A stretch of 64,000 nucleotides of DNA from Paludisphaera rhizosphaerae (GCF_011065895.1 NZ_JAALCR010000018.1:62001-126000), one strand, 5' to 3'. Shown: positions 3,552-45,052, counted from the first letter of the stretch. The notes: generated by a model from the sequence alone, not told the origin. Numbers and translations are program-made.

Positions 3552-3895
3552 GAGTTTCCCGCCGACGATTCTCGAGAAAACACGACCAGCGCCCTTGAAA
3601 CCCGGGCTCGCGCGCATACCGTCTTTCTGCCTAATAAAACGCTGCATCAGCCCCCCCGGCGGAAGGCGGCGGCGTCAGCGTCGAGCCAGGTCCGGAATGA
3701 ATCTCGGGCCGGCTCCGGTCTCGGATCCCTGGTCCGAGGCGGCAACGCCGTCGGGTTGCGACCTCTCCCAACCATCGACCACGCCATCCGCCGACGGACG
3801 AACCATGCCGTCACCCCGACTTCGGTCGCGGTCGCGCCCCCCCGTGCGCCCGACGACCCAAGGTCACGGGGGCCATCGCGCAAAAGGAGATTGCG
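3552..3895. other. Intergenic stretch with no supported gene
   Basis: This 344-bp spacer holds only short antisense-style reading frames rich in Arg and Pro. The last part carries a strong ribosome site (AAAAGGAGA) for the next gene. I see no RNA gene or clear promoter. Confidence 0.5.
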
Positions 3896-4234
3896 ATGCA
3901 ACACGAATCGTTTCCGGACGAGCATATCGAGGGACTAGAAGATTACGTCGTCGTCTTCAAGGAAGGGCCGAACCACGGCTACGTCCTGCGCGGGGACGAT
4001 GAACTGGCCGGCATCCGATGGATGACGGGCGACACCGGGCTGCTGCCGAACGTGGGAGACCTCTTCCAGAGCCCGGTGATGTCCATCACGATCGCCGCGC
4101 AGCGGTCCGTCGACCGCCGAAAGCTCTGGATGGCGCTCGTCAAAATCGGCGAATCCGGCGCGAGCTACGCCGCGTACCGCGTCGAGTCGATCGTTGAAGG
4201 CGTCATCGTTCTGAGGCATGTTCCCGACGCTTGA
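3896..4234 (+). CDS. Hypothetical cytoplasmic protein, 112 aa
   Basis: An AAAAGGAG ribosome site sits about 8 nt before the ATG, the best one in this region, which supports a genuine gene. The product is acidic to neutral, has no signal peptide or membrane segment, and has alternating hydrophobic residues (DYVVVFKEG, LWMALVKIGE, EGVIVLRHV) suggesting a small beta-rich domain. I do not recognise the family. An AT-rich stretch follows it. Confidence 0.65.
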   Translation: MQHESFPDEHIEGLEDYVVVFKEGPNHGYVLRGDDELAGIRWMTGDTGLLPNVGDLFQSPVMSITIAAQRSVDRRKLWMALVKIGESGASYAAYRVESIVEGVIVLRHVPDA

Positions 4235-4270
4235 CATCGCATTGCATCTACATTCGTTATTACGTCTGCA

Positions 4271-4299
4271 TTGACATTTTCTCATGACATTTCACATCT
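4271..4299 (+). promoter_or_regulatory. Possible promoter region with tandem TGACATTT
   Basis: A consensus -35 hexamer TTGACA (4271-4276) lies in AT-rich sequence about 120 bp before the propeller gene. The octamer TGACATTT occurs twice, 13 bp apart (4272 and 4285). A matching -10 is weak (ACATCT at 17-bp spacing), so the promoter call is tentative. Confidence 0.3.
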
Positions 4300-4396
4300 G
4301 GAGAGGGCGTAGCATCGTTGCCCGCGCCGTCCCGCCGTGGTAAGCCTGAGGCTGGAAAGTCGTTCGATCGAAGTCCGGCCGGTTCATGAGGTGAAG

Positions 4397-5977
4397 ATGT
4401 CGTTCCCGTCACGCACCAAGGCCCGCCCGTCGTCGTCGCCCGCAGCGCGGCTGCGGTGGGCCGTGGGCCTCTTCGTCTGCTCGTCGTGGGCCTACGGGGC
4501 TGATGGGAACGTCGCCGCGCCTCGGCCTTCGGCGAGCGCCGTGAGGCTGATCGGGGGCGAGGCGGTTGAGTTCACGTCGGGCACGTCGCCGGTCCTGAGC
4601 GCGACTCCGAAACCGACGCTGGGAACGCGAGATTTCGCCGTCGGGCTTTCGTTCCGATCGGACGAGACGGCCACCCAGGATCTGGGCGACCTGATGAGCC
4701 TGTGGGACGCGAAGACGCGGCACGGCTTCACTCTCGGCCTGCGCAACAATACGGGGAGCACGACCAGCCAGGCCAACTGGCGGCAGATGCAGTTCGGGAT
4801 CGACGCCGGAACGACGCCGAACTGGCGCGACGAGGGCCGGCCCGGCGCCGCGCTGCTGGGCTTCTCGATCGCCGTCCACGACGGAAAGCTCTATGTCGGG
4901 ACGTGCGAGCCGATGCGGCCGCAGGTTGGGAGGGTTTATCGTTACGACGGCCCGGGGAGATGGACGCCCCTCAGCCCGCTGGACGGCTCGAACTCCGTGA
5001 CCGCCCTGGCCAGTCTGGACGGCCGCCTCTACGCGGCGACGGGCAAGTATCGGGTGGCCGGTTCGTCCCTGCCCGAGTCCGACAACACGGAGCGCGGGGG
5101 TCGCGTCTACCGGCTGATCGAGCCCGACCGCTGGGAGTTTGTCGGCGACCTGGAGACGGAGGCGATCGCCGGCCTGGTGAACTTCGGCGGCAAGCTCTAC
5201 GCGTCCGCTTTGTATAAGCCGGCCGGACTCTACCGCCACGAAGGCGGAGGAGCCTGGACGACGGTTCCCACACCCGATGGCAAACGGGTGAATGCTCTCG
5301 GCGTCCACGGCGGGGCCCTGTACGCCACCAGCTATGACGTCGGGAACGTCTATCGTTACGACGGCAAGGCCTGGAAGGGCCTGGGGCTCGTCGACGCGAA
5401 CATCACCCAGAATTACTCGTTCACCACGTACCAGAACTCCCTGCACGTCTCCACCTGGCCCGCGGGCAAGGTCTATCGGCTGGATGCGAACGACCATTGG
5501 GTCGACGCCGGCCGACTGGGGAACGAGTTGGAAGTCATGGGCATGCTCGTCCACAACGGGACCTTCTACGCCGGCTCGCTCCCCTCGGCCGAGGTCTACC
5601 GTTACGAAGGCGAGCCCCGATGGACCCCTCTGAAGCAGTTGGACGAAACGCCCGACGTGAAATACCGCCGAGCCTGGGCGATGGCCACCTACCAGGGGCG
5701 GCTGTTCACGACAACACTCCCCTCGGGGAAAGTCTGGTCAATGTCCGCGGGGAGCCTCGCCACCGTCGACCGTGAGTTGAGCCCGGGCTGGCACGACGTG
5801 GCCGCCCAGCGGACGGGAGACAAGCTCCGCCTGTTCGTCGACGGCCGTCTGGCCGTCGAGGCCGACGGTGCAGCGCTCGACCTGAATACCGCCGGGCTGC
5901 GGCTCTCGGTCGGCGACGGCCCTCGCGGCCGATTCGTCGGCACGATCAAGGACGCCTGGTTCGACGCGGCTCCGTGA
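4397..5977 (+). CDS. Secreted beta-propeller protein inserted in a lectin-fold domain
   Basis: A 526-residue exported protein. The start at ATG 4397 (MSFPSRTK) is chosen for the GAGGTGA ribosome site; a basic stretch and the hydrophobic run WAVGLFVCSSWAYG follow. Residues of about 45-130 look like the first half of a concanavalin A/LamG fold (FAVGLSFRSDE, LWDAKTRHGFTLGL). The middle has about six Kelch-like blades built on the pattern G-x-L-Y-x-(A/G)-T ... V-Y-R-Y-(D/E)-G. The last 75 residues return to LamG-type strands (GWHDVAAQRTGDKLRLFVDG, GTIKDAWFD). Carbohydrate or matrix binding is inferred from the folds. No catalytic residues are evident. Confidence 0.75.
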   Translation: MSFPSRTKARPSSSPAARLRWAVGLFVCSSWAYGADGNVAAPRPSASAVRLIGGEAVEFTSGTSPVLSATPKPTLGTRDFAVGLSFRSDETATQDLGDLMSLWDAKTRHGFTLGLRNNTGSTTSQANWRQMQFGIDAGTTPNWRDEGRPGAALLGFSIAVHDGKLYVGTCEPMRPQVGRVYRYDGPGRWTPLSPLDGSNSVTALASLDGRLYAATGKYRVAGSSLPESDNTERGGRVYRLIEPDRWEFVGDLETEAIAGLVNFGGKLYASALYKPAGLYRHEGGGAWTTVPTPDGKRVNALGVHGGALYATSYDVGNVYRYDGKAWKGLGLVDANITQNYSFTTYQNSLHVSTWPAGKVYRLDANDHWVDAGRLGNELEVMGMLVHNGTFYAGSLPSAEVYRYEGEPRWTPLKQLDETPDVKYRRAWAMATYQGRLFTTTLPSGKVWSMSAGSLATVDRELSPGWHDVAAQRTGDKLRLFVDGRLAVEADGAALDLNTAGLRLSVGDGPRGRFVGTIKDAWFDAAP

Positions 5978-11424: not shown

Positions 11425-12534
11425 ATGTCCTCACGTCGCGGGTTCACGTTGATCGAACTGCTGGTGGTGATCGCCATCATCGCCGTTCTGATCGCCCTTC
11501 TGTTGCCCGCCGTTCAGTCGGCCCGCGAGGCCGCTCGCCGGGCGCAATGCGTCAACAACCTGAAGCAGATCGGGCTGGCGGTGCATAATTTCGAGAGCGC
11601 CAACAACGAGTTCCCGCCGGGGATGGGTCCGGCGCCGCTGGCGGCGCCGAGCCTGGGATCTGGTACGCGGGTTGGCGTGCAAGCCCTGATTCTGCCGTAC
11701 CTGGAACAGGCGTCCCTGTACGGGACGTTCAACCTCCAGCTTGAAATCAATTCGACGGGCGAGAACGACACGGCCCGCTGCCAGCAGATCGGTGCGTTCC
11801 TCTGTCCTTCCGACGGCAAGGGCTTCCGCAGCCCCGGAACGCGGACGTACGCCAACAGCATCGGCAGTTGGGGCCAGAGCAACTATTACGGCAGCAACGG
11901 GGCGACGGCCTCACAGATCTACAATACGGTGAGCACGTCGTTCCCTTACAACGAGACCAACTCGGGGACCCTGGGGGTCTTCAACGTCTCGCTGAACGTC
12001 TCGGCGCCCGCGCCGACGACTGCGGTGCCCAGTCCGGATTTTCGCAAGGTGACGAGCAAGACGACGATCGCCTCGATCTCCGACGGCACCAGCAATACGG
12101 CGATGTTCGCGGAGATTCGGATCTCCAACATCCCCTACCCGGTGACGGCCAACATCCCCGGCGACTACAACACCGTGTATCTGCCGTCTTCGTGGACCGT
12201 CCCGGTCGACAATTACGTTCCCCAGGCGGGCTGCTCCGGAGTGCCGTACAACACCCGGATCACCTATAAGGGCCAGCAATACTATCGCGGCAACATCCCC
12301 GAACTGGCCTACTACAACCACACCCAGACGCCCAACACGAAGCAGATGGATTGCGGCGACGTGACCTACTTCACGTCGGCCCACATGGCGGCCCGGAGCT
12401 ACCACTCCGGCGGCGTGAACGTGGCCTTCTGCGACGGCTCCGTGAAGTTCATCAAGGACTCGATCAGCCTGACGACCTGGATGGCGCTCGGAACCAGGGC
12501 CGGCGGCGAGGTCGTCTCGGCCGACGCCTATTGA
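11425..12534 (+). CDS. DUF1559 pseudopilin-like protein
   Basis: A 369-residue protein with leader MSSRRG, then [20 protein letters not shown] and the [20 protein letters not shown] helix. It has [14 protein letters not shown] in the middle and the C-terminal signature [20 protein letters not shown], ending [15 protein letters not shown] ribosome site precedes the ATG. It is the longest of the seven copies except for 18355-19485, with a longer variable middle section. A textbook terminator follows, then a lipoprotein gene. Confidence 0.92.
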
Positions 12535-12552
12535 TCGTTCCCCTCGCTTCCG

Positions 12553-12581
12553 CGGGCCGCTCGGAGAGCGAGCGGCCCGCT
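12553..12581 (+). terminator. Rho-independent terminator
   Basis: GCGGGCCGCTC (12553-12563), a 7-nt loop and GAGCGGCCCGC (12571-12581), immediately followed by TTTTCTCCTTTT. An 11-bp perfect GC stem plus T-rich tail. It lies between a DUF1559 gene and a lipoprotein gene on the same strand. Confidence 0.9.
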
Positions 12582-12607
12582 TTTCTCCTTTTGCCTGCGA
12601 GTCACGA

Positions 12608-13066
12608 ATGCCGTCTTCCCGCATTCCCTCAGCCTGGATCGTCGCCGCGGCCCTGGCCGCGGCTGTGACGCCCGGCTGCGGTCCGCCGCAGTCGGTCACC
12701 AACGCCCCCGAACACTACGACATGGGCTCGCTGGACGAGGTGGCCGACCTGTATAATTCCGCCTACAACGCCAAGAAGAAACCTCCCGCTTCGATCAAGG
12801 ATTTCGTCCGGGGCGACCTCTTCGTCGGCGGCATGAACGCCATCAAGAAGGGCGAGGTCGTCGTCTACTGGGGAGTCACCCCCACCCCCGGCGAACCCAC
12901 CCAGGAGATCCTCGCCTACAAGGCTGACGTCCCCGAGAAGGGCGGTTACGTCCTGCTCAAGGATCTGACCACCAAGGCCATGACCGCCGACGAGTTCAAG
13001 GCCGCTCCCAAACCTTCCGGCCCCACCTCGGCCGACACGGCGAAGCCCGAAGCCAAGAAAAGCTGA
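12608..13066 (+). CDS. Small lipoprotein, unknown function
   Basis: A 152-residue protein with an N-terminal export signal (SAWIVAAALAAAVTPGC) and Cys at a lipobox-like position. The mature part has GSLDEVADLYNSAYNAKKKPP, quoted in part as SLDEVADLYN, and a C-terminal charged Lys/Pro/Ala-rich tail. There is no transthyretin-like pattern, unlike other DUF1559 partners in this window. It begins 73 bp after the DUF1559 stop, beyond a strong terminator, so it may need read-through or its own promoter. Function unknown. Confidence 0.75.
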   Translation: MPSSRIPSAWIVAAALAAAVTPGCGPPQSVTNAPEHYDMGSLDEVADLYNSAYNAKKKPPASIKDFVRGDLFVGGMNAIKKGEVVVYWGVTPTPGEPTQEILAYKADVPEKGGYVLLKDLTTKAMTADEFKAAPKPSGPTSADTAKPEAKKS

Positions 13067-32187: not shown

Positions 32188-33764
32188 TCAGGGGCTCCGT
32201 TCGGCAGGCCGGAGATGAGGACCGGGTCGACGCGCTGGTCGTCGTCGGCCGCGTCCTGGAGAAAGAGGTCCTGGACCGATTCGCCCTCGGCGAAGCCCAG
32301 GTCGGAGAGATCGATCCCCACGGCCAGGGTCCGGAAGCCGCTCCGGATCCGGGTGGTGATCAGGGGGGATCGTTCCAGGTCCTCCAGGTTCAGGACCGGG
32401 TCGGGGGAGCGATACAGGTGGAAGCCCGACGTCCGCAGGGCTTCCGGCGAGTTCATCGTCAGGTCCCACGCCCGGATCGTGTGCGACCGTCGGCCGCCCT
32501 GGAACGACAGGGGGGCGACGTGGAAGGCGTCGCCGTCGAGCGAGTTCGTCAGGCATTGGATCTCGAAGACGACGACGTCCGGCCCCGGCCCGTTGACCAC
32601 GGGTTTGCGGAAATGGACGGCCATCCCGGGCGTGCCGCCGCCGTCGGCCGAGGAGTCGAGGATCGGGTCGGAGCGAAGCGGCTCGCGGCTCCCTCCTGGG
32701 TTGATGACGCCGGTGTCCAGGGCGTCGTCCGAGAGCAGGTTGCGACGAGGAAGGAAAAGGTCCGGCCCGCTGGCCAGGTGGCCGTTGGGATCTCGGCCCG
32801 GATCGGGACGGAACCACGTCAGGCCGACGGGGATGAGCCACTCGATCGGATAGGTCCGAATCACGCCCCCGCGCTGGACGGTCACCGACCTCAGCCGGCC
32901 GACGCCGCCGTCGGCGCGGGGCTCGGCCTTGTAGGAGACGACGCGGTCCGGCAGCCGAGGGCGATACATCTCCGGCCGGAAGCCCATCGCCGAGGTGCTC
33001 CCCACGTCCGCGGCGGCGAACCGACGGGCCTGGTTCTCGACCAGCCGCGCCTGGAGCGCGGGCTCGGCCTCGCCGTCGGGGCGGCGGTAGACGTCGGCGG
33101 CGCCCTCGACGACCTGCACCTCGGTCTCGTTCGTCTCGCGGACGTTGACGACGAACCGGGTGCCGCGGTCGATCACCCGCGTCGCCGGGGTCTCGACGCG
33201 GAACCCGGCGGCGTTCCCGGGGGCGTGGACCGAGCAACGGCCGATCTCCAGCGCCAGGACGTCGGCCGCCTCCACGCGAAACGAGGCCGGCGCCTCCAGC
33301 ACGGCCGAGGCCCCAGCCGGGAAGCTCAGCTCGACGAGCCCATCGGTCAGGACGTAGTCACGACCCCGCTCCAGCGCCGCACCGACGTCCGGGACCGGCT
33401 GGCCGAGGAACCGGGCCCGCGAGGCCCCCGCGAGCCGGGCCGCTTCGACCGGCCCCTCGGTTCGACGTTCCATCCGCCGCAGCGCCGCCACGCCCAGGAG
33501 GGTCGCGAGCAGCAGCACGGCCGCCGCCGCGAGGGGGATCGCCCAGGGGAAGCGTCGGATGGGGACGGCCGGTCGTTCCGCGTGCTGGTAAGCCTCGCGA
33601 CGGGCGACCTCGCGGACGAGGGCCGCCTGCATCTGGAGTTCGGCGAAGGCCCGGAGCTTGTCCGGGTCGGAGCGCAGCTCGTCCTGAAAGGCGGCGGCCT
33701 CGTCGGGGGCGGCCGCGCCGTCCTGGAATCGGATCGCGCGTTCGAGGAAGTCGAGGTCGTTCAT
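32184..33764 (-). CDS. FecR-like membrane regulator (anti-sigma partner)
   Basis: A 526-residue protein. ATG 33764 has GGAGGG upstream and overlaps the sigma-factor stop by 4 nt. The N-terminal 70 residues are cytoplasmic and helical (DLDFLERAIRFQDGAAAPDE), then one transmembrane helix at about 73-95 (WAIPLAAAAVLLLATLLGVA). The periplasmic FecR domain follows at about 145-235 (LTDGLVELSFPAGA, FRVETPATRVIDRGTRF). The last 290 residues are a planctomycete-specific extension with short beta strands. It very likely senses an extracellular signal and controls the sigma factor encoded just upstream. Confidence 0.88.
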   Translation of the reverse strand: MNDLDFLERAIRFQDGAAAPDEAAAFQDELRSDPDKLRAFAELQMQAALVREVARREAYQHAERPAVPIRRFPWAIPLAAAAVLLLATLLGVAALRRMERRTEGPVEAARLAGASRARFLGQPVPDVGAALERGRDYVLTDGLVELSFPAGASAVLEAPASFRVEAADVLALEIGRCSVHAPGNAAGFRVETPATRVIDRGTRFVVNVRETNETEVQVVEGAADVYRRPDGEAEPALQARLVENQARRFAAADVGSTSAMGFRPEMYRPRLPDRVVSYKAEPRADGGVGRLRSVTVQRGGVIRTYPIEWLIPVGLTWFRPDPGRDPNGHLASGPDLFLPRRNLLSDDALDTGVINPGGSREPLRSDPILDSSADGGGTPGMAVHFRKPVVNGPGPDVVVFEIQCLTNSLDGDAFHVAPLSFQGGRRSHTIRAWDLTMNSPEALRTSGFHLYRSPDPVLNLEDLERSPLITTRIRSGFRTLAVGIDLSDLGFAEGESVQDLFLQDAADDDQRVDPVLISGLPNGAPE

Positions 33765-34282
33765 GCTTCGCCCTCCGCCGCCAGTCGCAGCCGGATGCAC
33801 TCGCCGAGCGTCTTGTGGATGCGGGCGAGCGCCTGGTAGACCGTCTCGACCTTCCGGCCGAGGGCCTCGGCGACCTCGCGCCCAGAGCGGCCTTCGAAGT
33901 AGCGGAGTTTGAGGATCTCGCGGTTGTTCAGCGTCAACTCGCCCATGCAGCGGGCCAGGGCCTCGCGACGGCGGCCCAGGCTGTCGGCGGATGCGTCGGG
34001 CCAGGCGTCGGCCAGGGCGGCCAGCAGATCCTCGTCCAGTCCTTCGTAGCGGCCGTCCCGGGCGCGGAGGAGGTCGACGGCCCGATTGCGCCCGGCCGCC
34101 CGAGCCCAGTTGCGCAGGTGGGCCGGCGACTCGAACGGCTCGCGACGGACGATCGCCTTGACGCAGACGTCCTGGTACACGTCCTCCGCGATCTGGTAGT
34201 CGCGGGCGACCGTCGCCAGGTACGCCGTCAGCGCCAGCCGCTCGCTCAGGAGCAGCGTCGTCGTCTCCTCGGCCGTGAGCAT
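33761..34282 (-). CDS. ECF-type RNA polymerase sigma factor
   Basis: A 173-residue sigma factor. ATG 34282 has GGGAGGAA upstream; the frame extends 17 codons further but without support. Region 2: LATVARDYQIAEDVYQDVCVKA, quoted as YQIAEDVYQDVCV, followed by LRNWARAAGRNRAVDLLR. Region 4: LTLNNREILKLRYFEGRSGREVAEALGRKVETVYQALAR, quoted as EILKLRYFEGRSG and VETVYQALARIHK. It resembles the RpoE-type sigma factors paired with FecR proteins in planctomycetes. It heads the operon sigma-FecR-PSD1-DUF1501 and probably drives its own operon. Confidence 0.92.
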   Translation of the reverse strand: MLTAEETTTLLLSERLALTAYLATVARDYQIAEDVYQDVCVKAIVRREPFESPAHLRNWARAAGRNRAVDLLRARDGRYEGLDEDLLAALADAWPDASADSLGRRREALARCMGELTLNNREILKLRYFEGRSGREVAEALGRKVETVYQALARIHKTLGECIRLRLAAEGEA

Positions 34283-34620
34283 CGCGTCGGGTTCCTCCCA
34301 GGGAATACGATCGCCCCGGCGATCACTCGACACGAAATCGCGTTTTCTGACGGGAAGCCAGGCCGATAGCCTCTGGCGGACCCAGGCTATCGTCTCGCCG
34401 TCATTTCCACGAGAGCGAGCCCAGTAGGTTGCACTCCCTCGCGCATGTCGCTAAAAATAAATATCCTCTCCCACCCGTTCGGAAATGCGGCGAACCTTCA
34501 AGGCCGGTCTGCTTACCGGTCAATCCGACGCCCCCCTCCCTCCGCGCGTCCGGTCGATGGATTCGACGCGATGTGGCTCTTTCTTCCCTGCCTTCGCACC
34601 GCGAATCGAGGGTGGATCCC
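34283..34620. other. Divergent intergenic stretch, no gene seen
   Basis: Between the minus-strand sigma factor gene and a plus-strand unknown gene. An AT-rich patch lies near 34445-34475 (AAAAATAAATATCC). Three frames run across it but none has a ribosome site or protein-like composition. Confidence 0.45.
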
Positions 34621-35454
34621 ATGTCACCAGAGACTGCCCAAGTCTGGAAGCTCCTTCACTCCGTGGCGTGGAACGTCTCTTGCGAGCGAAATCTGATCTG
34701 GGATGACAAGCGATGTGTGAACGTATCCGCTCGAGCCTGGCGCTGGTTGTTGGGGTCGAACCTTCATCCTGATATCTGGCGGCAGGCACTTCGTTCCCAG
34801 GACGACACCCCCCGATCACCGGCCGCCGAACTCTATAAAGTCTGGTTCATTTATGCGGTCATCTGGATCATCAACCTCGCCAATCGAGACCTTAAGGCTC
34901 TCAACATGGGCGTCGATCTAGACGCCGACGAGTCGGACGATCCGCCTAAGGGGGCGACGAAGCAGGCTTCTCTGCTGCGCGATCTGCCCCCCTTTATCGC
35001 GGCCCAGATGTTGCTTTTGCTTCTCTACGATGAACACAAGGATGCTTACGAAGTTCTGATCCGGTGGAATACATGTTCGATCGACGACATCATTAGGGAT
35101 ACGAAGCTCCCGTCCGAGGATATCGTCCGCAAACACTACGAATTGGCGATAGAGTTTTTGATGGACTACGTCCAGAACGGCTTCGAAAGTCTGAGGTTTA
35201 AGAAGTCCAAGCTGTGGTCTCCCTCGCTGAAAAACCTGGAACATCCCGCTCCTCCCAACAGCGGGTTGTTGAAGGGGGTGCTCCATAAGTACGAAAGGAG
35301 AATCCGACAAAGAAGCGAAAGAGACCGGGGCCTCGCCCAAGTCGCCCGAGAATTCGAGCTAACCGTCGAGGAAAATCCCTCTCTCGATTCGGTACTGGGG
35401 GCATTATACGCCCTGTTCCCTGATCAACCCCAAGGTGAAAAATCGTTGGAATGA
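34621..35454 (+). CDS. Unrecognised 277-aa protein
   Basis: A cytoplasmic-looking protein from ATG 34621 (MSPETAQVWKLL), with GAGGGTGG upstream. It has a hydrophobic helical stretch (VWFIYAVIWIINLAN) that may be a buried helix rather than a membrane segment, a second at AAQMLLLLLYDEH, and a helical middle (IDDIIRDTKLPSEDIVRKHYE, quoted as LPSEDIVRKHYELAIEF) that could be an HTH. The C-terminus is charged. Codon usage is less GC-biased than in neighbouring genes, consistent with accessory DNA. I cannot name the family; it converges on the next gene. Confidence 0.65.
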   Translation: MSPETAQVWKLLHSVAWNVSCERNLIWDDKRCVNVSARAWRWLLGSNLHPDIWRQALRSQDDTPRSPAAELYKVWFIYAVIWIINLANRDLKALNMGVDLDADESDDPPKGATKQASLLRDLPPFIAAQMLLLLLYDEHKDAYEVLIRWNTCSIDDIIRDTKLPSEDIVRKHYELAIEFLMDYVQNGFESLRFKKSKLWSPSLKNLEHPAPPNSGLLKGVLHKYERRIRQRSERDRGLAQVAREFELTVEENPSLDSVLGALYALFPDQPQGEKSLE

Positions 35455-35489
35455 GCTTCCAGCGAGGAGATTTGGAATTCGAAACCGAT

Positions 35490-35894
35490 CTAGCCTAAGA
35501 AACCTTCCGTCGACGCTCGTATGGCAGCGATACGAGGACGAACGATTGCAGGGGCGAGGACGTCGTCGAGCGGGCATCGAACGCGCCCAAAACGCGTGAC
35601 GTACCCATGGATCTCTTCGCGAATGATCCTCTTATGCTCTTCCCTTCGTGGGAATTGGGCCCAGGGCTCTACACTGAACAGGTCATGAAGGTTCTGTCTT
35701 TCGCTCCATTCTCGGATCCTATTCACAACCTTCTGAAGGGCATTGAGAGCATTCCCTCCCGTAAAACCAAGCACCCACGCACTCGCATAAGTGCTTACGC
35801 AGACTTCATGGGCCTCCTCTTTGGGGACGAACTCGCTTAGCGAGCGGATCATCGCATCAATCTGAGGATCGGCCTCTGTCCGAACGTCCGACAT
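35490..35894 (-). CDS. Unrecognised 134-aa protein
   Basis: ATG 35894 (MSDVRTEADPQI) has an excellent AGGAGGG ribosome site. The product is helical, with SEFVPKEEAHEVCVSTYASA and NALNALQKVVNRIREWSERQ as amphipathic segments, and a C-terminal part ending RASTEGFLG. No signal peptide or known motif is seen. Its stop faces the stop of the 277-residue gene 35 bp away. Confidence 0.65.
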   Translation of the reverse strand: MSDVRTEADPQIDAMIRSLSEFVPKEEAHEVCVSTYASAWVLGFTGGNALNALQKVVNRIREWSERQNLHDLFSVEPWAQFPRREEHKRIIREEIHGYVTRFGRVRCPLDDVLAPAIVRPRIAAIRASTEGFLG

Positions 35895-36195
35895 CGTGGG
35901 GTCCCTCCTAACCATCGTTGGTTGCCGGCCGTCGATGTGAAAACCGCCCGGGAGAGGGACCTGACAGTCTTCCTATAGAAAAGGGCCCGAATGTTCAAAT
36001 TCTGCGACGCCAGCCGAAGATCTGTTGTAATCGAACCTCAGAGTACGATTTCTTCGAAAACCCCCCTCGTTAATTGCAGAATTCGCGGATTCGGGCCCCA
36101 TTGATAGTGGCAAGGACGACCAAGGAATTCAGTCGAGAGACAGTCCAACATCACCAGACGCGAGAAGCGTCGCCCCTATCGAAGGAGACGAGACC
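35895..36195. other. Divergent intergenic stretch, AT-richer, no gene
   Basis: About 300 bp with lower GC around 35980-36110 and a small dyad GACGC-GAGAA-GCGTC at 36158-36172. It should contain promoters for both sides, but I cannot assign hexamers with confidence. Confidence 0.4.
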
Positions 36196-36429: not shown

Positions 36430-36480
36430 GGGGCGGGGTTTTCCACGTCACGAGCCGTTGGTTATTGGAGGATGATTGGA

Positions 36481-37107
36481 ATGCCCGCTTCTGCCGAACC
36501 CCGTCAGTCGGACTCGGTTAAGCACACGTCCACCCCTTTCGAGACTCTTGAATACCTCGTCTTCAAGGAGAGCGTTGAGGCGTCGGACGCCCTTGCGTCG
36601 CTGGGTTTCTGCAACCCCGCGATCGATCGCATCCGGAAAATCGACGCAGAAAACATCCGAGAAGACGACGTCGAGTGGTTTCACGTTCACGTCGAAGGGG
36701 GCTGCCCGGCGTGCGCCGAGGCGCTGCGTCGCATGGAAGAGACGCTCGCGGCCGACCAAGGATCAGGCCCGAAGAGCGGTCAGGATGTTGCAAATTCTCA
36801 AGCCGGCGCCCCCGCCGACTGCAACACCGTCAAGGCCCAGATGTCGAAGTACCTCGACGACTCCCTGGAGATCCAGGACCGAGACAATTTCAATGAACAC
36901 GTGCGTGAATGTCGTTCCTGTTTCGACCTGGTCGAGAAGCTGGAATGGACGCTCTATCTGGCCGCGGCCGCTTTTGAGGGCCGCCCGGACGCGCCTCGCG
37001 AGGAAGAGTCGCCCGAGGCAGACCCTGGACCATGCGACGGCCCCGGCGATCTGACAAGTGATGCGGCACGGAGAGCCGCCAGGACCGGCGCTGCCGGTCG
37101 TGTATAA
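36481..37107 (+). CDS. Soluble double zinc-finger (anti-sigma-like) protein
   Basis: A 208-residue protein without signal or membrane helix. ATG 36481 has GGAGG 10 nt upstream; the ATG at 36472 overlaps that site and is rejected. Two Cys/His clusters are visible. The first, HVHVEGGCPAC, is followed by an amphipathic helix. The second, NEHVRECRSCFDLVEKLEW, has the canonical zinc anti-sigma spacing His-x3-Cys-x2-Cys. Tandem ZAS-type fingers usually bind a sigma factor's region 2. The C-terminal about 50 residues are acidic and probably disordered. A sigma-like gene ends the same operon, making it the natural partner (inferred). Confidence 0.72.
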   Translation: MPASAEPRQSDSVKHTSTPFETLEYLVFKESVEASDALASLGFCNPAIDRIRKIDAENIREDDVEWFHVHVEGGCPACAEALRRMEETLAADQGSGPKSGQDVANSQAGAPADCNTVKAQMSKYLDDSLEIQDRDNFNEHVRECRSCFDLVEKLEWTLYLAAAAFEGRPDAPREEESPEADPGPCDGPGDLTSDAARRAARTGAAGRV

Positions 37108-37206
37108 ACCCCTCTCGGTTTCCCGTAAGGATCTCAGCGGACTTCGGCGCACGTCGAAGACGGCTCGTTTTGTCTTCACACCGATAGTACGAGACGAGGT
37201 TTCGAC

Positions 37207-39375
37207 ATGCCGACGATCGCGGCCGTCATCGACCGGATGTTTCCCGAGGGGACCAACCCGAGCGGTGGCGGCCCAGTCGACAGAACCCAGGCTCCGCAAT
37301 GGCCTCCCGACGCGTTCGCCGTCGCGGCGACCCTCGTCGGGCGATCCGGCTGCTACAGCCGTCCTGAATCCACAGGCCTTCAAAATCAGACGTTCGACGA
37401 GCAGTTCGTCGACCGCGCCGAACGCCTCGGCCGCCTGTGGGCGGGGGAACTCGACGTCCAAAGCGAAGGGTCGCGAGGACCCGTCTCGCCGAGGGAGGCT
37501 CCTGAACTGTTCCACGAGTTGGAGGCGTTGTGGAGCGTTCTGACGAACCACCGTGAGCTACGGATCTCGGATTCGAAAGCCGAAGTCTGCTGGCGAGCGG
37601 CCCTGCAACTGATGGCCATCGCCGACGAGGCTTGCCGGGGAGTCGGCTTCGCGTCGATTGCCCGAAAGCCCAAAGACGCCCCCTCCCCCAAAACCACCCG
37701 TCTGATGGCGCTCGTCCACGCAGTGAATCTTGAGCGCGAGGCGAACATCACGTACGGCCCTTCCGATCAGAAGTTCTCCCTTCCCTACCTGCCGAACAGC
37801 CTCTGCAGGATGGTCCCGCCCGACGAGGCCTGCGTCCATCCGAAGACCCGCGCGCCGCGAGCGGGAATCACGCTGCGGTCGTTCTCGCACTACCTGGCGC
37901 TGGTGCCGCCGATCGGCGAGGTCGAATCCTCCTGGCGGAATGTCAACGAGGGAATCGCCGCGGAGTCTCCCGCCGAACCGTGGCTCAACGTGCTGGTCGT
38001 CCCCTTTCCCTACCATGTCCCGAAAGGCTGCTTCCGCGTCGGTCGCCGAACAAGCTGCGACGCCGTCGCCGAACTGCAGGCGGCGCGCGACTTCCATTCG
38101 TTCTTCTTTGACGCCGAGGCAAAGTGGCTGAAGGACCAGGAACGGGCGCTCGACCCCAAGGCCCTCGGCCATTTTCTGGTGGACCTCGTCAAGGAGGCGA
38201 ATGCGGCCCCCCAAGGCGGTCGGGTCGACGTCATGGTCTTGCCTGAGCTGGCGCTGGAGGCCAACATCGCGGAGAAGGTCGCCGAGATTCTGGCTGAACG
38301 AACTTCGCTCAACATGTTCGTCAGCGGCGTCTACGAACAACCGGCCGACGCCGACCCGATCAACGCCGTGGATTCCTACCTGCTCTTCAACGGCGAGGTC
38401 GTCGACAAGAACCGTCAGACCAAGCATCACCGCTGGAAGCTCGATCCCCGACAGTGCCAGGACTACGAGCTCGGCCCAGACTTCGACGCGTTGCAGTCGA
38501 CCGTCGCGGCGGCGCCGGCGGGCCAGGACGACGAGCCTGACCCAGACTTCGATGCACGAGATGAACAGACGGCGTTCTGGGAGCACATCGACATCACCCG
38601 TCGCACCGCCTCGTTCTGGGTCTTTCGTCCCGGCGTCAGCGTGACGACCCTGATCTGCGAGGACCTGGCCCGTGTCGACCCCGTCCACACCTACATCAGG
38701 ACCATCGGCCCGACTCTCGTCATCGCCCTGCTTATGGACGCGGCCCAGAAGCGAACCCGATGGCCGGGGCGGTATGCGACGAACCTTCGGGACGACCCGG
38801 GATCGTCCGTGCTCACGGTCAGCTCGCTGGGGATGATCCGTCTCGTCCGCAAGTATTACGACGCCGAGGCGCCGCAGGCGGTGGCGTTCTGGGCTGATGA
38901 GCACGTCGCCCGCGAACTTTGGCTCGACCCGGGGAGCCATGCCCTGCTGCTCAAGCTCAAGCCTGTGTTCTCCACGAATTACACGCTCGACGGGCGGGGC
39001 AACGACGGACGAACCATCAGCCTCCGCCTACCGTCCCACGAAGAAGGGCGGGAGGCGGAAGACGCCTTTGAAGCGGCGAAGGCGGGGGCCGCGGCCGCCT
39101 CCTGGGCCCTGGACGCCGCCGACAAGGCCGTGAGAGGAGCATCGGATCGGACGGGGAAGGAGTCGATCGAAGCGGTCAAGAAAACCGCGATTGCGGCGGC
39201 CTCGGCCGCCCAGGACGCGTTGAAGGCGGCCCACGAGGCGGTGAAAGCGGCACGGGCGGCCGGTCTGCACCGTACCAAGAACAAGCGGGTGATCCAGATC
39301 CAGCATCCGCGACCGCCGGCGTGGCTCGGCATGAATGCGCCGTCGGAGACCTCTTCTCAGGGCGCCGCCTCATGA
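37207..39375 (+). CDS. Large nitrilase-fold (CN-hydrolase) protein with helical extensions
   Basis: A 722-residue cytoplasmic protein. Residues 1-230 are a helical N-terminal region with no known match. From about 260 the nitrilase fold begins (LNVLVVPFPY) and keeps all three catalytic residues in order: Glu347 in VMVLPELALE, Lys406 in RQTKHHRWK and Cys484 in TTLICEDLAR. An acidic insert lies between Lys and Cys (430-455). Residues 620-695 are Ala/Lys-rich and strongly helical, probably a coiled coil. Family members cleave or form amide bonds. It is flanked by a zinc-finger anti-sigma-like gene and a sigma-like gene; the stop of this gene overlaps the sigma start by 4 nt. Confidence 0.72.
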   Translation: MPTIAAVIDRMFPEGTNPSGGGPVDRTQAPQWPPDAFAVAATLVGRSGCYSRPESTGLQNQTFDEQFVDRAERLGRLWAGELDVQSEGSRGPVSPREAPELFHELEALWSVLTNHRELRISDSKAEVCWRAALQLMAIADEACRGVGFASIARKPKDAPSPKTTRLMALVHAVNLEREANITYGPSDQKFSLPYLPNSLCRMVPPDEACVHPKTRAPRAGITLRSFSHYLALVPPIGEVESSWRNVNEGIAAESPAEPWLNVLVVPFPYHVPKGCFRVGRRTSCDAVAELQAARDFHSFFFDAEAKWLKDQERALDPKALGHFLVDLVKEANAAPQGGRVDVMVLPELALEANIAEKVAEILAERTSLNMFVSGVYEQPADADPINAVDSYLLFNGEVVDKNRQTKHHRWKLDPRQCQDYELGPDFDALQSTVAAAPAGQDDEPDPDFDARDEQTAFWEHIDITRRTASFWVFRPGVSVTTLICEDLARVDPVHTYIRTIGPTLVIALLMDAAQKRTRWPGRYATNLRDDPGSSVLTVSSLGMIRLVRKYYDAEAPQAVAFWADEHVARELWLDPGSHALLLKLKPVFSTNYTLDGRGNDGRTISLRLPSHEEGREAEDAFEAAKAGAAAASWALDAADKAVRGASDRTGKESIEAVKKTAIAAASAAQDALKAAHEAVKAARAAGLHRTKNKRVIQIQHPRPPAWLGMNAPSETSSQGAAS

Positions 39376-40022
39376 ATGAATCGTCCCCTCGCCCCGACGA
39401 GGCCCCGGGCGAAACAGCGGCCGCGGAAGCAAAACGCCTGCAAGAAGAGGGGCGCCGGCAGATCGCCAACCTGCTGCGTTCCACCGCCGCGAAGCGCCCC
39501 TGGATCCAGAGCGAACTGGACGACGCCGAGAACGAGGTCGTTCTGATCCTGCTCGATCGCGTGGGGTCCAACATCTGGGAGGATCTGAGCCCACGGAAGT
39601 TCGGCTCCGAAGCAGCTCGACAGGCGCGTCGAAGCCTTTTCCAGGCGGTGCAGATCGTCTCCGATCGCCTCCGAAATCGCCGACGGGTCGAGATCAAGCC
39701 GGGAGACGCTGACTACGACCCCGACGCCGACAAAACGCGTCGCCAGCGGCGGACGATCGCCCCCGACTGGCATCTCGGCGACGACGCCGAACGGGTCGTC
39801 GACGATGCTGTCGAGGACGGGGTGCGCATCGACGTCCGCACCGCCCTCGACGGCCTGCAACCGCAACAACGTCGGATCGTCGTCCAGCGCGTCGTTCAGG
39901 GGCTGACCTGGGAGCAGATCGCCGCCGAGCTCAAGGTCACAGCCTCTCAAGCTCGTTCCCAATTCTCGAGCGCCCGGTCTGTGCTCGCCGATTGGCTGCG
40001 GGCCTACAGCGACGACCTCTGA
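39372..40022 (+). CDS. Sigma-70 family (ECF-like) factor
   Basis: A 216-residue protein starting at ATG 39372, which overlaps the nitrilase-like gene's stop (ATGA), so translation is coupled. The region 2-like part includes SELDDAENEVVLILLDRV and ARQARRSLFQAVQIVSDRL. Region 4 is clear at the C-terminus: ALDGLQPQQRRIVVQRVVQG, then the HTH LTWEQIAAELKVTASQARSQF. Region 2 is divergent from standard ECF factors and the linker is long and charged, so a sigma-like regulator is the safest call. Cognate to the zinc-finger protein two genes upstream by context. Confidence 0.72.
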   Translation: MNESSPRPDEAPGETAAAEAKRLQEEGRRQIANLLRSTAAKRPWIQSELDDAENEVVLILLDRVGSNIWEDLSPRKFGSEAARQARRSLFQAVQIVSDRLRNRRRVEIKPGDADYDPDADKTRRQRRTIAPDWHLGDDAERVVDDAVEDGVRIDVRTALDGLQPQQRRIVVQRVVQGLTWEQIAAELKVTASQARSQFSSARSVLADWLRAYSDDL

Positions 40023-41689: not shown

Positions 41690-41857
41690 CGACTCTCCAA
41701 GAAGGATCGCGACTCCGCCGAGCCCTCGCCGCCGAGGGAATCGCGCGGATGGTGCGTCGATTTCGGAGTTTTTTCCTGCGACAATCCCACCGTGGGGGCC
41801 CCGTCGCCCCTCGCCTCCCTCGAGTCCGAAGCTGTTCCGAGGAGCCCACCGTTGAAC

Positions 41858-44800
41858 ATGGGATCGATCCCTTGCGCTCGATGTGGAGTGATGTGCTCAC
41901 CGGCGGATACAACAGACGGGCTCTGCTCGGATTGCCGGATGAAGCGTCGGCACGGGCCGGAGACGGAGCTCGATGAAGAGACGATCCCCGGCCCGTCGAG
42001 CGATGCCGGCCAGGAACCGACCGATCGGATGGGGCCGGACGAGACGTCGACGCCTCAGCCGGACGGCGCGGTCGAGGACGACAGCACGACCCTGCCGCCG
42101 GACGGCCTCACGGTGAGCGCCGGGGCTGGGGCCAAGGCCCCGGTCGACCTTGGACGAGGGACCACGGTCCATTACTTCGGCGACTACGAGATCCTGAAGG
42201 AACTGGGTCGCGGCGGGATGGGGGTGGTCTACAAGGCCAGGCAGCTCAGCCTCAATCGGGCCGTCGCGTTGAAGGTCGTCAAGGCCGGGGTTCTGGCGGA
42301 CGACGAGGAACGCCGCCGATTCCAGAATGAGGCGGAGGCCGTCGCGCTGCTCGATCACGTCGGGATCGTTCCGGTCCACGAGGTCGGCGAGCACGAGGGG
42401 AAGCCGTACCTTTCGATGAAACTCATCGAGGGGGGCAACCTGACGGCAAGCCTCGCCAGGTACAAGCAGGACCCTCGCGCAGCCGCCGCTCTGACCGCCG
42501 AGATCGCCGAGGCCGTCCACCACGCCCATATGCGCGGGATTTTGCACCGCGACCTGAAGCCCGCGAACATCCTGCTCGACGCCGGGGGCCACCCCCACGT
42601 CACGGACTTCGGGCTCGCCAAGCGCGTCGAGGAGGACCTCGAACTGACCGCGAGCGGCGCGATCCTCGGGACGCCGTCCTACATGAGCCCGGAACAGGCC
42701 TCGGGTCGCCGAGGCGCGATCACGACGGCGTCCGACGTTTACGGCCTGGGGGCGATCCTCTACGCGCTCCTCTCCGGCAAGGCGCCGTTCGGCGGCGGGA
42801 GCGTCGTGGAGACCATCGACGCGGTCAGGAATCAGCCGCCAGTCCCTCCGCGTCGGGCGAACCCCGACGTCCCCCGCGACCTCGAAACGATCTGCTTGAA
42901 ATGCCTGGAGAAAGACGCGCGACGAAGGTACTCCTCGGCGTCCGCCCTGGCGGACGACCTGAAAGCCTGGCTGGAATCCCGGCCGATCTCGGCCCGCCCC
43001 GTCGGCGCCTTCGAGAAGCTGCGACTCTGGTGCAGGCGGAACCCGGCCGTGGCGGCGTCAGCGGCGGCGGTCGTCATGGCGCTCGTCCTGGGGACGGGGT
43101 CGGTGATCGCCGTACAGACCCGGGCGAACGGCCTGCTGGAGAAGAAGAACCTCGACCTTCAGGCGTCGAATGCGGAACTCGACAAACAGCGGCTCCGCGC
43201 CGTCTCGGCTGAGGCCGAGGAACGCCGCCGCGCCGCGGAGGTCCAGGAGACCGCGGACTTCCAGTCGAAGATGCTCGCCCAGGTCGATCCCGCCCAGGCC
43301 GGCCTGAACCTCTCCCAAGACGTGAGAGCCCGGTTCGTGGAGGCCCTAGCGAAGGCGGAGACCTCCGACGTTGAGCGGGCGCGGCAGGAAGAGGCCTTCG
43401 TCAACGCCTGGAGCCGGGTCAACTCCACCGACGCCGCCCGCACCCTGATCGACGGCGCCATTCTCAAGCCGGCCGCCGAGGCGATCGACGTCCAGTTCAA
43501 GGACAGGCCCTTAATCGCCGCCACGCTGCGGCAGACTCTGGGAGAGCGATACGAAGACCTCGGCGACTACGAGGCCGCGGCCCTCCAGATGAAAGCCGCG
43601 ATCGACGCCAGACGACGAACGCTTGGGGACGACCACCCGGAGACGCTCGAGGCGATGGTCGAATTGGGTCGCATACTCACGTCGCAGGACAAATACGACG
43701 AGTCGTCGCGGCTCTTGAAGCAGGCCATGGATACGGGCCGAAAAGTCCTCGGCGACGATCATCGCACGACCCTGAGCGCCACCCACGGCATGGGGGTCGT
43801 GCTCAGCAAGCAAGGGCGATGGGACGAGGCGGCCTCGCTTTTGAGCGAGGCCTACGAGCGACGTCTACGGCTGTTCGGAGAAGACGACCGCGACACGTTG
43901 ACGGCGATCGCCTCGATGGGAGACATCCTCAAGGCGCAGAGCAAGCTGAACGAGTCGCTGCCCTACCTCAGACGGGCGGTCGACGGGAGGCGGAAGGTCC
44001 TGGGCCCGGACGCCGACGCCACGCTGAACTCCCTGAATAACCTGGGCACGCTGTACGTCGACCTGAAACGGCACGCGGAGGCCGTCGCGTGCTTTCGCGA
44101 AGTGTGCGACAAACGGCGCGTCCTGCTCGGCGCGGTCCATCCCCGGACCATGAACGCCCTCCGAAACCTCGCCGGAGCCCTCTCCCGCGAAGGGAACGAC
44201 GCGGAGGCCGAATCCCTGATGCGTGAGGCGCTCGCCGACGACCGCCGGATCCTCGGGGACGATCACCTGTCCACGCTCGTGTCGCTGAACAACCTCGGCG
44301 CGTTCCTGCTCGAAAAGAACAGACCGGACGACGCCGAGCCGTTCTGCCGCGAGTCGCTGGAGAAAAATCGGCGAATCCTCGGCCCCAACCACCCCAGGAC
44401 CCTGGTCGCGACGAACGTGATGGGCTACGTCTACTCGCGAAAGAAGCGGCCCGCCGACGCCGAGCCCTTGCTGCGCGAAGCCATCGAGATCAGCCGACGC
44501 ATCAACGGGGAAAATCATCAAGACACCCTCGTATTCATCCAGAACCTCGGAACGTCGATCATGGATCAGAAGAAGCCGGCCGAGGCCGAGCCGGCGTTCC
44601 GCACTGTCGCCGAGAAAGCCTCCGCGGCGCTCGGCGATCGACATCCGCTCGTCGTCGGCGCCAGGACCAATCTGGCGCGCGTCCTCCTCGACCAAAAGAA
44701 GTTCGCCGAGGCGGTCGAGGTCCTGGCGTCCAGCGAGAAGACGGCCCGTGCGATCGGCGGTCGAGAGGGAGATCGATCGCTCGCCATGACCCTGCAGCGG

Positions 44801-45052
44801 TTGGGGACGGCTCGAATCGGCCTCCACGAATTCGAGAGGGCGGAAGCGACCCTCCTCGAAGCCCACGGCGTCGTCCTCAGGATGCGAGCCGCCGGCGTCG
44901 CCGACTCGCGCAACTGCGAACGGACGCTCGTGCAGCTCTACACCGACTGGGACGCCGCCAAACCGGGGAACGGTTACGACGCGAAGGCCGCCGAGTGGAA
45001 GAAGAAACTCGAAGAACCGGCGTCGCCGTCCCCCACTCCCAAGGCGAGCTGA
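41858..45052 (+). CDS. Ser/Thr kinase with N-terminal zinc ribbon and C-terminal TPR array
   Basis: A 1064-residue kinase. Residues 1-30 have two CxxC pairs (Cys6/Cys9 and Cys23/Cys26) of a zinc ribbon. The kinase domain at about 108-375 keeps [12 protein letters not shown], Lys139 in [15 protein letters not shown] (230-238) and DFG (250-252). A transmembrane helix lies at about 396-419, followed by a short coiled coil. The C-terminal 480 residues are about ten kinesin-light-chain-type TPRs (42-residue units with RRxLGxDHPxTL). An in-frame TTG at 41852 has better spacing to GAGGAG and may be the true start. A periplasmic TPR sensor linked to a cytoplasmic kinase is inferred. Confidence 0.9.

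Follow-up and report, generated by a model that had tools for sequence, protein, structure and literature searches.

In the 64,000-nucleotide stretch of Paludisphaera rhizosphaerae DNA analysed here (NZ_JAALCR010000018.1:62001-126000, hereafter the window, positions being counted from its first letter), three consecutive genes at 36481-40022 encode a zinc-finger protein, a 722-residue enzyme and a sigma factor. Judged from its predicted structure, the 722-amino-acid (aa) protein is a divergent member of the nitrilase superfamily having a complete Glu-Lys-Cys triad and predicted hydrolase activity, and it belongs to an enzyme family that is widespread, patchy, mobile and hitherto undescribed. 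The novelty lies in this enzyme family and not in the trio, the zinc-finger and sigma neighbours being a local addition. Our preferred reading of the locus, held tentatively and with slightly more doubt than belief, is a horizontally acquired nitrilase-fold effector, probably defensive, wired to a local sigma/anti-sigma pair. The enzyme gene is organised as follows.

37207..39375, plus strand: gene of the divergent nitrilase-superfamily enzyme with an N-terminal helical domain (722 aa; family alignment, model and fold search)
37207..37971, plus strand: family-specific N-terminal region, about residues 1-255, mainly helical and without a known domain (model, Pfam)
37972..39036, plus strand: nitrilase-fold domain, about residues 256-610 (model and fold search)
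38245..38247, plus strand: codon GAG of the predicted catalytic Glu347
38422..38424, plus strand: codon AAG of the predicted catalytic Lys406, within KHHRW
38656..38658, plus strand: codon TGC of the predicted catalytic Cys484, within ICEDLAR
39037..39258, plus strand: Ala-rich helical hairpin, residues 611-684 (alignment and model)

As a single sequence, the 722-aa protein gave no match in Pfam at E ≤ 1, was recognised by none of the NCBIfam profiles, and found no meaningful match among PDB sequences. The Pfam CN_hydrolase profile (PF00795) failed on the window protein, and with ten close relatives its best result was E 0.21, for a single one of them, because the family is too divergent for that profile. 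An AlphaFold2 model from the single sequence was unusable (pLDDT 39), and a model built on a 75-row family alignment was used instead (pLDDT 85, pTM 0.86). In a structure search with this model, all of the 50 PDB matches listed were nitrilase-superfamily enzymes (best E 7e-6), the closest among them being beta-ureidopropionase, Nit2, the glutaminase domain of NAD synthetase and carbamoylputrescine amidohydrolase; the corresponding search of viral structures gave no match below E 0.001. Glu347, Lys406 and Cys484 were invariant across the 75 aligned sequences, as were P346, H407-H408, W410, E485-D486-L487-A488-R489 and about a dozen other positions. In the model, the triad residues were located at or just after strands 342-351 (Glu347), 397-405 (Lys406) and 477-483 (Cys484), and nitrilases carry their triad residues at the ends of the corresponding strands. 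The intact nitrilase triad that a preliminary description had read from this DNA alone was thus borne out by residue conservation, strand position and fold search alike. The N-terminal region is also conserved in the relatives (W78, D140, E141, K213, G220 and others). Two further features of that description, an acidic insert at about residues 430-456 and a coiled coil rich in Ala, exist as well, although neither was found in any of ten aligned relatives, so that both are private to the window copy in this comparison.

With the 722-aa protein alone as query, no relatives were found in genome and viral contigs. A tblastn search of plasmid records, however, retrieved 12 with long relatives (27-33% identity) from alpha-, beta- and gammaproteobacteria and Deinococcus, the hosts including Rhizobium, Massilia, Cupriavidus, Deinococcus, Vibrio and others, and some of these family members reside on conjugative or mobilizable plasmids. 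A pattern search of GTDB species genomes, derived from the alignment of the plasmid relatives, gave 183 matches, among which 167 stretches encoded family members and 80 were kept. The family was present in 3 of 392 genomes of the planctomycete phylum, no other member was found in 98 related genomes, and all 24 host genomes checked carried a single copy, one of which was split in two pieces. In a tree of 85 sequences, grouping of the six planctomycete members as one clade was rejected (approximately unbiased test, p 0.00098), and the window copy fell on a 99%-supported branch together with 66 others, none of them labelled planctomycete and proteobacterial members among them. The window enzyme is, as far as these sequences tell, horizontally acquired. 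On a Deinococcus plasmid (L008, 6929-12401; L and G numbers denote our loci and genomes), a family member of 808 aa with a long C-terminal extension is followed by a 995-aa tetratricopeptide repeat (TPR) protein with an AAA-like start.

The remaining features of the cluster are the following, where ZAS stands for zinc-associated anti-sigma and ECF for extracytoplasmic function.

36481..37107, plus strand: zinc-finger (ZAS, anti-sigma-like) gene; 208 aa, soluble, zf-HC2 profile match
36610..36714, plus strand: first Cys/His cluster, C44-x25-H70-x4-C75-x2-C78 (sequence)
36820..36921, plus strand: second Cys/His cluster, canonical ZAS, C114-x25-H140-x3-C144-x2-C147, inside the zf-HC2 match
39372..39375, plus strand: ATGA stop/start overlap of the nitrilase and sigma genes (sequence)
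39372..40022, plus strand: ECF-type sigma factor gene; 216 aa, Sigma70_r4_2 and TIGR02937
39831..39977, plus strand: sigma region 4, residues 154-202 (Pfam match)

The coordinates, common plus strand and spacing of the three genes proved to be as first described, with a 99-bp gap between the end of the zinc-finger gene (37107; a second in-frame ATG lies at 36472) and the start of the enzyme gene (37207), and with the ATGA overlap thereafter; by this layout the three would form one transcription unit. The 208-aa protein matched zf-HC2 (PF13490) at 6.3e-7 (29.8 bits against a Pfam cut-off of 22.2), in agreement with its description as a ZAS-type protein, and the RsrA-like TIGR03988 at 9.2e-7, which is below the cut-off of that profile. 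No membrane helix was found, the highest 19-residue Kyte-Doolittle mean being 0.92, as had been claimed. Both of its reported Cys/His clusters are present, and C114-H140-C144-C147 conforms to the ZAS motif Cys-x25-27-His-x3-Cys-x2-Cys; the preliminary description had credited only one of them with ZAS spacing, whereas the Cys-x25-His spacing is common to both and makes a tandem ZAS-like arrangement. The 216-aa protein showed a clear sigma region 4, again as described (Sigma70_r4_2, 1.2e-8, passing the Pfam cut-off). By Pfam its region 2 is weak in comparison, but TIGR02937 spans residues 22-206 with 44.2 bits against a cut-off of 42.9, and therefore region 2 is probably present besides region 4; TIGR02937 and Pfam together place the protein within the ECF type, which has regions 2 and 4 only. 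The profile check proposed at the outset accordingly succeeded for zf-HC2 and sigma region 4 and failed for CN_hydrolase.

Each of the six zf-HC2 matches of this genome has one of the 77 sigma region-4 matches no more than 3.1 kb away, where about 6% would be expected for each, and therefore the 208-aa ZAS protein is probably the anti-sigma partner of the 216-aa sigma factor. Consistent with this prediction, Hx3Cx2C motifs are enriched among soluble anti-sigma factors, and a ZAS protein has its natural partner in a sigma factor (PMC7406223).

The preliminary description had further suggested that the three genes constitute a conserved, undescribed signalling system of ZAS protein, nitrilase and sigma factor. 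The tight operon layout with translational coupling and the natural partnership just cited favour such a system, but the neighbourhoods of the enzyme family do not. Genes were called around 85 other members (10 plasmid and 75 genome loci, some flanks ending at contig ends and one pair being nearly identical) and searched with the zinc-finger, sigma and ECF proteins of the window. None of the 85 neighbourhoods contained a zinc-finger or sigma relative, the only ECF-like matches being two at distances of 7 and 10 genes, and clustering of the neighbours revealed neither a family-wide partner nor a conserved metabolic neighbour. The sigma protein had only region-4 matches, within the phylum, and no plasmid match; full-length relatives of either protein were likewise absent from the plasmids. 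That description had itself named enzyme homologues without the two neighbours as evidence against it, and such homologues are what was found. With neither neighbour seen beside any enzyme relative, the trio does not amount to a conserved system, and we consider this explanation very improbable.

According to our preferred reading, the family members would be conditional hydrolase effectors, most likely acting in defence. The N-terminal domain, in many lineages together with a small downstream partner, would keep the hydrolase quiet until infection or stress releases it, whereupon it might attack an essential metabolite bearing an amide or amine group, thereby harming the cell or the invader. 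In the window, the soluble ZAS protein would probably hold the 216-aa sigma factor; redox change, zinc loss or another intracellular cue could free it, and the free sigma factor could then drive its own operon and hence the enzyme, the sigma/ZAS pair thus setting the enzyme dose.

The link to defence is drawn from the surroundings of the relatives. In the planctomycete genome G176 (L130, 308-12618), the family gene (3876-5492, minus strand) is flanked by cas5b and cas3b in a complete type I-B locus, which also has cas6, cas7, cas8b, cas1 and cas4 and a CRISPR array of at least 10 repeats at 11713-12618. At L044 and L078 the family gene stands at the end of type I restriction operons (hsdM/hsdR upstream; hsdMSR), and at L018 hsdM follows 0.5 kb downstream. 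GajB of the Gabija system is located 129 bp upstream of the family gene at L029, CD-NTases of the CBASS type lie near it at L027 and L042, and TIR, E2, restriction and DGQHR annotations occur among the neighbours at the plasmid loci.

Several findings weigh against the preferred reading. Strong PADLOC matches (E<1e-100) were found for 5 of 150 genes near the family and 4 of 150 farther away, as against 1 of 129 taken from control regions on the same contigs or genomes; the difference points the expected way without reaching significance, and most members adjoin ordinary genes, many of them metabolic. The defence link is therefore suggestive and best in single cases, and a defence role of the family is plausible on this genomic context. 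In addition, the 722-aa protein matched no PADLOC profile at E ≤ 1 and nothing in the phage collection, and the zinc-finger and sigma proteins had no full-length relatives among the 392 genomes of the phylum. The enzyme gene also lies between the zinc-finger and sigma genes, unlike the usual order in which the sigma gene comes first and the anti-sigma gene follows. As to the phage-response link raised in the preliminary description, the member in the cas operon, the hsdMSR, Gabija and CBASS neighbours and the plasmid carriage speak for it indirectly and at the level of the family only, and the enrichment does not. Taken as a whole, that earlier interpretation was partly supported.

Small genes beyond the enzyme gene bear on what accompanies the effector. 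Counting open reading frames with an ATG start, 45-200 aa in length and starting -30 to +70 bases from the enzyme stop codon, we found one in 48 of 81 members as compared with 56 of 175 control genes (odds ratio 3.1, p 6e-5). They directly follow the nitrilase gene, commonly 5-60 bases past the stop, at L003, L023, L027, L032, L036, L040, L043, L057, L066 and others. Their products are homologous within clades (Burkholderiales, Bradyrhizobium, Phycisphaerales and an Acidobacteria group, which by eye includes the planctomycete G252); those of the Burkholderiales share an N-terminal motif F-x-x-G-S/N-R ... E, and other lineages have lineage-specific small proteins. A single common family for all of them was considered and rejected, as a convincing match links just two groups, both from Burkholderiales (hhalign probability 94), and the remaining groups show none. 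As a lead, the small downstream gene may encode a fast-evolving partner, whose 3' slot is occupied by the sigma gene in the window.

This excess of small genes, their homology at the same place within clades and the plasmid carriage of the family would also suit a two-gene toxin/antitoxin-like or effector/adaptor module, in which enzyme and small partner are selfishly maintained on plasmids and the partner of the window copy has been lost or replaced. However, alignment of the small proteins mostly fails from one clade to another and the small gene is missing at many alphaproteobacterial loci, while a sigma gene fills the slot in the window, and we regard this explanation as quite unlikely. 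A specialised metabolic or detoxifying amidohydrolase, acting on an amide, carbamoyl or nitrile substrate, carried on plasmids and islands and here placed under a stress sigma factor, without a part in defence, is a stronger candidate, which we judge only somewhat unlikely. The closest structures listed above are of enzymes of this kind and many neighbours are metabolic, but no metabolic neighbour is conserved over the 85 loci, the family-wide N-terminal domain is not seen in metabolic nitrilases, and one member lies within an operon of cas genes, while others come last in hsdMSR operons. An ambitious form of the defensive reading takes the family as new anti-phage effectors: each nitrilase-fold enzyme would stand alone, sense through an N-terminal domain of its own, work with a small partner that evolves fast, and be pluggable into type I-B CRISPR-Cas or type I restriction operons, with the sigma/anti-sigma switch replacing the small partner here; this we consider unlikely.

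According to the 2026 paper on DRT1 (UG1), nitrilases are uncommon in anti-phage defence and without precedent there. The nitrilase domain of DRT1 and its catalytic cysteine are needed for phage immunity, which the C1116A substitution abolishes; active DRT1 brings about abortive infection, and its nitrilase substrate is stated as unknown (PMC13275509). DRT1 thus serves as the precedent for the effector reading. The window enzyme resembles DRT1 in having a nitrilase-superfamily domain with a Glu-Lys-Cys centre and a large preceding N-terminal part. It differs in that its 722 aa include no reverse-transcriptase domain (no such match in Pfam or PADLOC), its N-terminal region comprises only about 255 residues, it matches no PADLOC profile at E ≤ 1, and any immunity that it confers is a prediction. 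With beta-ureidopropionase, Nit2/Nit3, the glutaminase domain of NAD synthetase and N-carbamoylputrescine amidohydrolase it shares fold and triad, but the window family has the extra N-terminal domain and invariant KHHRW and CEDLAR motifs and lacks a CN_hydrolase match. The predicted regulatory pair shares with ChrR/RsrA-type class I soluble zinc anti-sigma factors and their ECF partners the Hx3Cx2C motif, the lack of a membrane helix and a sigma gene in the same operon (PMC7406223); the window protein differs in its two ZAS-like clusters and in the order of anti-sigma gene, enzyme gene and sigma gene, and the pairing is predicted. The EACC2/TRADD-N neighbourhoods, with their ECF sigma, caspase and TPR genes (PMC8195603), likewise join an effector-like enzyme to an ECF sigma factor in one operon, although in our case no caspase, EACC2 or TRADD-N domain was found and the arrangement occurs at one locus only. 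In the open-access papers searched, no stand-alone family of nitrilases acting in defence was found described. If the preferred reading is true, these smaller, reverse-transcriptase-free proteins would be simpler systems for finding what such effectors cut, and proteins whose sole annotation so far is hypothetical gain a family worth naming.

Directly beside the family gene, nucleoside 2-deoxyribosyltransferase-like genes were seen at three loci (L047 5244-5735, L048 11807-12304 and L017 1259-3532). Two of these genes lie 12-15 bases downstream, and the match at L017 is weak (E 2.6e-4). In G176, a 192-aa gene with no assigned identity overlaps the 3' end of the family gene.

As for the surroundings in the window, a promoter scan of the operon gave no match, such a scan not being informative for ECF-type promoters. 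Congeners lack the flanking sulfatase and ECF genes, and because these are missing too, no empty insertion site was demonstrable there. Just upstream of the operon, at 34-37 kb, the GC content falls to 0.56-0.58 as compared with 0.66-0.72 on either side, in line with the mobility of the enzyme gene, and this dip holds two orphan genes at 34429-35915 (341 aa, plus strand; 141 aa, minus strand) that adjoin the operon and have no Pfam match. ARAGORN called a tRNA-Arg (TCG) at 33407-33490, which overlaps a long coding frame, is possibly false and was not taken to mark an island. The region is flanked by a separate ECF sigma factor of the Rhodopirellula/Verrucomicrobium type (33761-34333, minus strand) and by a Ser/Thr kinase with TPR repeats (41792-45052, plus strand), both of which are typical of planctomycetes.

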